64,000 nucleotides of DNA from Paralichthys olivaceus (Eukaryota > Chordata > Actinopteri > Pleuronectiformes > Paralichthyidae), in NCBI RefSeq assembly GCF_024713975.1, contig NC_091113.1:12970501-13034500 (forward strand), in the 5' to 3' direction. Within the stretch, counting starts at the first letter, position 1; the number at the start of each line of letters is the position of its first letter. Under the pieces are notes generated by a model, which saw nothing but the letters and a program-made list of their open reading frames with translations, was not told the DNA's origin and searched no databases. Shown here piece by piece: positions 58,044 through 61,000 of the stretch. The translations under genes were made by a program, and so were the position numbers.

Positions 58044-61000
58044 TCAATTAGACCTGTAAGAGAAACAGAGAGGTATAAATCAAATCAACACTTTGTGAAA
58101 ATCCTTGGACCAGGCCACTGGGAAGGTCTCACTGCCCTTTTATGGATCTCAACATGTGTGCTGTGTGTGCTCAATGAGTCATATCTGTGCTTTACCTGAT
58201 GTGATTTTGCATGATGGCAAGAGAACGCAGCCATGAGACTCCGCTAGGCTGGTTGGACAGCTTATAAGGAGGAAGAGTCTGAGGGGAGGGACATCCCAGA
58301 TTTATATTAGATGTCTTGGCCGCAGTGCAAGCTCTGTCCGTTCTTAGTGGGCTCACAATCTTGGATGAAGTATCACCAGGCGAGACACTTGCAGGGTACT
58401 TTTCAGTCTCCTCTTTTACTCCTGTCTCCTCAAGCTTTAACTTCTTAGACAAAGGTGAGGGTGAGGCAGAACGAGGTCTCTTTGTGCCCTGTGGTGCTGT
58501 GGGAGGGCTCCTTACCAGCTTCACAATCTTCTCAGTGGGCAAGACACCTGTGGTGGAGTTTTTGGGGCAGATGGGTTTCATCCCTGGTGCTTGTTCCTCC
58601 TCAGGCCTGAACTTCTTACATGACGTTCCTCCTGGGGGAGAACAAGGTCTCTTTGTGGCCTCTGGACCTCTGGAGATTGAAAAACCAGGTCTCCTTACAA
58701 GCTTCACAATCTTCTTAGTGGGCAAGAAACCTGTGGTGGGGTTTTCGGGGCAGATGGGTTTCATCCCTGGTGCTTGTTCCTCCTCAGGCCTGAACTTCTT
58801 AAATGAAGTTTCTGCTGAGAGACAATGAGGTATCTTTGTGGCCTGTGGACCTGTAGAGATTGAAAAGCCAGGTCTTCTTACCAGGCTCACAATTTTCTTA
58901 GTTGGCAAGACACCTGTGGTGGGGTTTTCAGGGCAGGTGGGTTTCACCCCCTGTGCTTGCTTCTCCTCAGGCCTGAACTTCTTACATGAAGTTTCTGCTG
59001 AGGGACAATGAGGTCTCTTTGTGGCCTGTGGTGCTGTGGGAGGGCTCCTTATCAGCTTCACAATTTTCTTGGTGGGCAAGACACCTGTGGTGGAGTTTTT
59101 GGGGCAGATGGGTTTTATCCCTGGTGCTTGTTCCTCCTCAGGCCTGAACTTCTTACATGAAGTTTCTGCTGAGGGAGAATGAGGTCTCTTTGTGGCCTGT
59201 GGACCTTTAGAGATTGAAAAGCCTTGTCTCCTTACCAGGCTCACAATTTTCGTAGTTGGCAAGACACCTGCGGTGGGGTTTTCAGGGCAGTTGGGTTTCA
59301 CCCCCTGTGCTTGTTTCTCCTCAGGCCTGAACTTCTTACATGAAGTTTCTGCTGAGGGACAATGAGGTCTCTTTGTGGCCTGTGGTGCTGTGGGAGGGCT
59401 CCTTATCAGCTTCACAATTTTCTTGGTGGGCAAGACACCTGTGGTGGAGTTTTTGGGGCAGATGGGTTTCATCCCTGGTGCTTGTTTCTCCTCAGGCCGG
59501 AACTTCTTACATGAAGTTTCTGCTGAGGGAGAATGAGGTCTCTTTGTGGCCTCTGGACCTCTGGAGATTGAAAAGCCAGGTCTCCTTACAAGCTTTACAA
59601 TCTTCTTAGTGGGCAAGACACCTGTGGTGGGATTTTCGGGGCAGATGGGTTTCATCCCTGGTGCTTGTTTCTCCTCATGCCTGAACCCCTCACATGAAGT
59701 TCCTCCTGAGGGAGAACAAGGTCGGTTTGTGGCCTCTGGACCTCTGGAGATTGAAAAGCCAACTCTCCTTACCAGCTTCACAATCTTCTTAGAGGGCAAG
59801 ACACCTGTGGTGGGGTTTTCTGGGCAGATGGGTTTCATCCCTGGTGCTTGTTTCTCCTCAGGCCTGAACTTCTTACATGAAGTTTCTGCTGAGGGAGAAC
59901 AAGGTCTTTTTGTGGCCTCTGGACCTGTAGAGATTGAAAAGCCAGGTCTCCTTACCAGGCTCACAATTTTCTTAGTTGGACAGACACCTGTGGTGGGGCT
60001 TTCAGGGCAGGTGGGTTTCACCCCCTGTGCTTGTTTCTCCTCAGGCCTGAACTTCTTACATGAAGTTTCTGCTGAGGGAGAACAAGATCTCTTTGTGGCT
60101 TGTGGTGCTGTGGGAAGGCTCCTTATCAGCTTCACAATTTTCTTGGTGGGCAAGATACCTGTGGTAGGGTTTTCGGGGCAGGTGGGTATCATCTCTAGCT
60201 CCTTCTCCTCAGGCCTGAACTTCTTACATGAAGTATCTGCTGAGGGAGAACAAGATCTCTTTGTGCCCTGTGGTGCTTTGGGAGGGCTCCTTATCAGCTT
60301 CACAATTTTCTTGGTGGGCAAGACACCTGTGGTGGGGTTTTTGGGGCAGGTGGTTATCATCCCTCCCTCCTTCTCCTCAGGCCTGAACTTCTTACATGAA
60401 GTCTCTGCTGAGGGAGAACAAGATCTCTTTGTGGCCTGTGGAGCTGTGGAAGCTGGAGAAGCTTTGCTGGGCTCGGATGTTACAGAGGATTCCTGTAGAG
60501 AACAAAAAAATGTTTTAAGTAATATCTTAACACAAGTAAGAATTTAGGAAATACTATGTACTTAAATGTTTTGATAAGAGTAAGACAATTGATGCCACTC
60601 TTGCATCTGTATGATCAATATGATGCACTGCAACTAACAACTGTTACATTAGGGTTTTTACAGGGGTTATGAGCTGGATTATTTCTCTTCTGGGCACAGT
60701 AACTTCCTGGAGTCTTGATATCACTGTGTAACTCTAATATGAGAAATACTTCAGTGCATAACCCAGTGTAAAAGCACAACCTGTCATTTTTTAACTATGG
60801 TTTTTGTGAAGATTTAAAAAAATGAGATATCATTAATAACAGCAGAAAACATTGTATATATTATAGACACATGTATGTTTAGTCAAATAAAGCATGAAAT
60901 GTTTGAGCAAACCTTTTCAGTCGTGTGACAGGACGACACTTTGGCACGTTTGGCAACAACCTTCCTCTTTTCATAGTTGACTAAAACGACCATTCCCTCC

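Follow-up and report, generated by a model that had tools for sequence, protein, structure and literature searches.

The locus raises the question of whether a vertebrate-type poly(A) polymerase (PAP) carries a tail of tandem repeats in its own reading frame and, if so, what the repeated unit represents. It was addressed within the window, that is, the whole 64-kb stretch of DNA that was analyzed, in which the gene lies on the minus strand. Judged from its sequence, a PAP gene with an in-frame coding repeat tail is supported. The repeat seems to stem from amplification of an old element, not from a new domain, and the repeat-tailed PAP appears to be an unusual form of a familiar enzyme.

Gene structure and identity of the enzyme

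Exon boundaries were set manually at GT-AG sites that preserve the reading frame. Ten upstream exons within 60913..63935 (63935-63824, 63673-63584, 63176-63038, 62865-62793, 62669-62549, 62375-62291, 61691-61638, 61495-61376, 61248-61133, and 61034-60913), the repeat exon (58196..60492), and a last coding exon of 10 nt (58044..58053, contributing SN-stop), all on the minus strand, joined to 3339 nt with a single stop at the end. The joined frame ends with ...QNHIRSN-stop and amounts to 1112 residues within the window. The positions 58196-60492, 61034, and 58044 from the sequence-only reading proved exact, and the in-phase connection of ten upstream exons to the repeat exon, also put forward there, was confirmed, with GT-AG sites throughout and no internal stop. 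As the window ends at 64000 inside the gene, the first ∼165 residues (bovine numbering) and the earlier exons lie beyond it, presumably including two of the three catalytic aspartates. With 1112 residues in view, the earlier estimate of ∼1270 residues in total is plausible.

The repeat exon is internal, comprises 2297 nt (∼766 residues), is preceded by CTACAG and followed by GTAAAGC, and matches the exons on both sides in phase. It contains no stop in frame, whereas the two remaining sense frames have 45 and 39; the open frame is a weaker sign than it appears because one antisense frame is also open over 318 codons. Downstream, 3′ of the stop codon, a relic of the exon start plus about half a unit was found (57767..57906, minus strand), which is identical to the repeat exon in 125 of 144 columns (87%) and shows a 1-base and a 3-base gap against it. 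The similarity starts with the second base of the exon, and no likeness to the intron was found. Such a broken copy, together with the fact that 2297 nt is generally very large for an internal exon, is what one might expect if the repeat exon were outside the polymerase mRNA, or part of a minor isoform only, or if the gene were decaying. We consider this very improbable in view of the GT-AG sites, the phase match on both sides, the stop occurring only in the last exon, and the kept active-site residues described below. On the minus strand 3′ of the stop codon, no AATAAA was present within 56900-58043; ATTAAA occurs at 57447.

The ten upstream exons encode 344 residues, in which the Pfam families PF20750, PF04928, and PF04926 scored above their curated cut-offs, that is, nucleotidyltransferase, PAP_central, and RNA-binding domains in the order of a PAP. 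The PF20750 (PAP_NTPase) match covers the end of the domain, the rest lying beyond the window, and that of PF04926 (PAP_RNA-bind) covers only positions 2-60 of 181. In the PDB, PAP gamma (2.9e-107, residues 1-329) and PAP alpha (1.4e-106, residues 1-330) were matched. Alignment revealed kept equivalents of bovine D167, R199, N202, K228, W230, K232, Y237, G246, and V247; those of D167, N202, K228, Y237, G246, and V247 are the same in bovine alpha, gamma, yeast, and the repeat-tailed PAP. We take D167 to be the third catalytic aspartate and N202, K228, Y237, G246, and V247 to be ATP-site residues. The earlier designation of the enzyme as "canonical" thus holds for its domains and visible active-site residues. 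It does not hold for closeness: the catalytic part is only 53% identical to bovine PAPOLA (172/327) and 52% to human PAPOLG (171/327), whereas the latter two share 79% (258/326). Accordingly, the enzyme was not closer to either of them than they are to one another, as an orthologue of PAPOLA or PAPOLG should be. Over 258 positions including yeast, changes private to one enzyme where the other three agree numbered 23 in the repeat-tailed PAP, 4 in alpha, and 4 in gamma. Where alpha equals gamma and yeast differs, the repeat-tailed PAP agrees with alpha/gamma in 45 cases and with yeast in 8, and differs from both in 50. The identity of 52-53% and the 23 private changes therefore indicate a divergent vertebrate-type PAP, resulting from an old duplication, fast evolution, or both; that a true PAPOLA or PAPOLG orthologue evolved fast is one possible cause. 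In the accessible part of a 2012 comparison of 3′-end factors, PAPOLB and PAPOLG figure as variants in few of the examined species (PMC3287031). Plain annotation of this divergent gene as PAPOLA or PAPOLG appears inadvisable. Taken together, the window contains the 3′ part of a divergent gene for a vertebrate-type poly(A) polymerase that appears to be functional.

In the neighborhood, a Pao retrotransposon peptidase (55034-55504, plus strand) lies beside the 3′ end of the PAP gene on the opposite strand, as does an integrase-core match (56249-56575, plus strand) that scored below its cut-off. Two open frames with THAP domains were observed on the minus strand (50053-50487 and 52160-52546). Pfam also identified bZIP, LRR, and MBT domains in four open frames within 3197-44898, where the gene order looks to us like TEF, ZC3H7B, RANGAP1, CHADL, and L3MBTL2; 22415-22720 (taken as ZC3H7B) and 43683-44012 (taken as part of L3MBTL2) had no Pfam match. 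Rfam at gathering thresholds returned nothing within the 64-kb window.

The repeat array and its NLS2-like module

Tandem Repeats Finder delineated an array at 58504-60450 with a period of 183 or 354 and 85-86% matches, which is a tandem repeat far beyond chance. Units were cut at [AG]T[KN][RI][SP][CHR]. A lead of 19 residues (60436..60492) precedes 11 full units (58489..60435) of 56, 56, 61, 61, 61, 57, 61, 57, 61, 61, and 57 residues, which are followed by a divergent twelfth (58309..58488, containing KIVSPLR; 51-57% DNA identity to the other units) and a unique tail end (58196..58308), all on the minus strand. The sequence-only reading had the count of 11 full tandem units without stop or frameshift right, although the lengths are 56-61, not 57-61, residues and the twelfth unit had been left uncounted. 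Across the 11 close units, 18 of 61 alignment columns are invariant; most units open with KR(P/S)x(S/C), and FRxEE and KIVxLxR each occur in all 11. Unit 12 also has the KR pair, the KK pair, and KIV. Simple splice-site scores picked out donor-like sequences in 10 of the 12 units (all except 10 and 12) and acceptor-like sequences in 11 (all except 12), and TGTA (UGUA in RNA) is present in every close unit, in nine of them at the same place.

Units 6 and 8 are 98%, units 7 and 9 are 96%, and units 3 and 9 are 95% identical, and the 354-base period outscored that of 183; the near-identity of the pairs 6/8 and 7/9 together with the longer period points to a two-unit step in the growth of the array, as unequal exchange predicts.

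What had been described as a "regulatory or docking tail" can be specified further, in that its unit is similar to NLS2, the bipartite signal of vertebrate PAP. The bipartite NLS pattern KR-x10-12-K[KR]x[KR] is found in 10 of the 12 units, namely, in 9 of the 11 close units and in unit 12, and is absent from units 5 and 10. As excerpts of the literature put it, a bipartite NLS consists of two basic clusters ∼10 residues apart (review, PMC3022542), two C-terminal NLSs of mammalian PAP-alpha flank a Ser/Thr-rich region (PMC10908868, PMC8191758), and NLS2 is the bipartite one, in which changing lysines 656-657 blocked SUMO conjugation and sent the enzyme to the cytoplasm (PMC10908868). When one consensus unit was compared with the presumed letters of mammalian NLS2, the score of 41 was reached by 3 of 20,000 shuffles; the score of unit 12 alone (28) was reached by 1150 of 20,000. 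Thus, the likeness is good for the array and insignificant for unit 12 by itself. The KR-x10-KK of the unit presumably has the same register and spacing as NLS2 of mammalian PAP. A literature query with 16 of the presumed letters gave no match. At the level of the pattern, the bipartite NLS2 of the PAP-alpha tail is matched, and import is predicted. The sumoylation-type site psi-K-x-E behaves differently, as psi-K-x-[ED] occurs in the repeat exon only as LKLE and VKEE, both in unit 12; at the position of LKLE, the close units read FRPE (unit 5: FRHE).

Selection on the units, and what the tail may do

Comparing every pair among the 11 close units gave a pS of 0.152 and a pN of 0.119, a ratio of 0.79 with a bootstrap range of 0.50-1.32 (18% of samples at least 1), and fixing omega at 1 and kappa at 2 cost the codon model only 1.3 log units relative to the free one. 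As the interval spans 1 and the loss is small, the ratio is not distinguishable from 1, and selection at the level of residues is not supported. This is what would be seen if the array were a tolerated coding minisatellite, its unit number functionless and rising and falling through unequal exchange within a disordered tail, and its frame open only since truncation or a frameshift would yield a harmful enzyme. The two-unit duplication at 96-98% identity and the lack of the NLS pattern in close units 5 and 10 would also suit this main rival, which we regard as a plausible account, if a somewhat doubtful one. Other features fit it less well. With the length of the unit tree taken from the codon model (∼100 substitutions), 2.9-4.6 stops were expected and none was observed (P 0.009-0.055), and units remained free of stops in 2.8-7.9% of neutral simulations on that tree. 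At least 9 of 11 NLSs stayed intact in 3.5-5.6% of runs (P 0.035-0.056), and did so with zero stops in 0.13-0.47%. In neutral simulations with kappa 2, which ran without gene conversion among units and for which all six motifs had been chosen post hoc from the alignment, retention had P values of 0.0035 for KIVxLxR (11/11), 0.0045 for FRxEE (11/11), 0.03 for CPx[NS] (11/11), 0.04 for TxGxxP (11/11), 0.04 for the NLS (9/11), and 0.19 for SP within the NLS (8/11). Against a functionless array also speaks that the basic pairs and KIV recur in the divergent unit 12. The absence of stops and the retention of short motifs exceed the neutral expectation modestly, the motifs being post hoc. The reading frame is kept, the short motifs are probably kept too, and the remainder drifts as in a disordered tail.

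Three further notions about the units were dropped. Special synonymous constraint on the NLS module, as suggested by a pS of 0.059 versus 0.18-0.23 in the other modules, was abandoned because 5 of 21 codon columns vary synonymously in the NLS module and 13 of 40 in the others. Control by CDK via the SP in each NLS was rejected, since SP is kept in 8 of 11 units, which is not above neutral; the repeat exon has 19 S/T-P, of which two fit S/T-P-x-K/R. Zinc binding through alternation of Cys and His from unit to unit was likewise discarded: the codon at position 6 reads TGT in six of the 11 units and CAT in the other five, while unit 12 and the downstream relic have CGT (Arg) there. As a single CpG decay step turns CGT into either TGT or CAT, a metal site is unnecessary.

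Single-sequence structure prediction of the tail yielded a mean pLDDT of 33.6, with all 765 residues below 50. The tail may thus be disordered, a low-confidence model of a single sequence being weak evidence. The PDB offered no match to the tail (E up to 1) or to a composite of units (E up to 10). The Pfam family Aminotran_1_2 reached a whole-protein score of 26.2 on the tail, above its cut-off of 19.7, yet none of the individual stretches passed, and we take the score to be an artefact of summed repeats. A scan of genome contigs with the unit alignment produced 19 pattern matches, among which no relative was confirmed; the collection being prokaryotic, this carries little weight. Literature searches directed at fish or paralogous PAPs, or at such repeats, recovered no paper, and no repeat of this kind appears in the accessible portions of PMC3287031, PMC5546720, PMC10908868, PMC8191758, and PMC3022542. 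The tail is basic, with 137 K+R versus 59 D+E in its 765 residues, and might accordingly bind RNA, hold substrate or poly(A), and raise processivity, the NLS pattern being a by-product. We deem this improbable: the basic pairs are not spread but follow one bipartite spacing with acidic residues after it, and Pfam (E up to 0.1) gave no RNA-binding family for the tail.

The explanation we favor over the tolerated minisatellite, and whose prospects of being right we see as evenly balanced, is that the regulatory NLS2 module has been amplified into a multivalent, disordered tail for import and docking. Unequal exchange within one exon would have multiplied NLS2 and the residues after it in head-to-tail order, leaving the 11 close units and the divergent twelfth. 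The tail would then act by number, not shape: it would offer importin-alpha several putative docking sites and carry a second motif, the basic-hydrophobic KIVxLxR, in several copies. The enzyme may be strongly imported and retained in the nucleus, and 3′-processing partners perhaps bound with avidity. The import part would have been amplified and the SUMO part not, given LKLE in unit 12 versus FRPE/FRHE in the close units. The in-phase exons, the PAP domains, the kept active site, the presence of the NLS pattern in all but two of the 12 units, and the 3 of 20,000 shuffles are consistent with amplification of NLS2, as are the neutral-simulation P values, the low pLDDT, and the two-unit duplication. 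Several points count against it: KIVxLxR and FRxEE are better preserved than the NLS itself, pN/pS is 0.79 (0.50-1.32), the motifs were chosen post hoc, and unit 12 is not like NLS2 beyond shuffles. A more far-reaching version, which seems unlikely to us, would make the enzyme a third, divergent line of vertebrate canonical PAP, in which the number of units in the NLS2 array sets nuclear retention or clustering, with a sumoylation consensus only in the last unit. If expressed, the gene would be a natural experiment on how many copies of an import or regulatory signal a core mRNA 3′-end enzyme can bear, and species or individuals differing in unit number would permit a direct test of whether the tail of a PAP acts by valency.

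Comparison with known systems

With mammalian PAPOLA (PAP-alpha), the repeat-tailed PAP shares the domains and visible active-site residues, and KR-x10-KK, presumably in the register of NLS2, is common to both. It differs in holding the NLS2-like module in 12 copies, 10 with the pattern, at an identity of 53% (172/327), and in the spacing before the module: only ∼33 residues, of which 19 are the exon lead, separate the end of the bovine alignment (residue 330 of 344) from the first unit. The Ser/Thr-rich region of PAP-alpha, for which one source in the part available names phosphorylated serines 537, 545, and 558 (PMC8191758), is therefore without clear counterpart here, and no long region of this type was found between an NLS1 and an NLS2. 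Human PAPOLG (PAP-gamma, PDB 4lt6) gave the best PDB match (2.9e-107) at 52% identity (171/327); its solved chain of 514 residues was matched up to its residue 497, which leaves its tail outside the comparison. Coding minisatellites, as a general class, occur in disordered regions of proteins, and the PAP array shares with them the in-frame tandem units and the signs of unequal exchange. Unlike in those, the unit amplified here resembles a pre-existing regulatory signal of its host protein.
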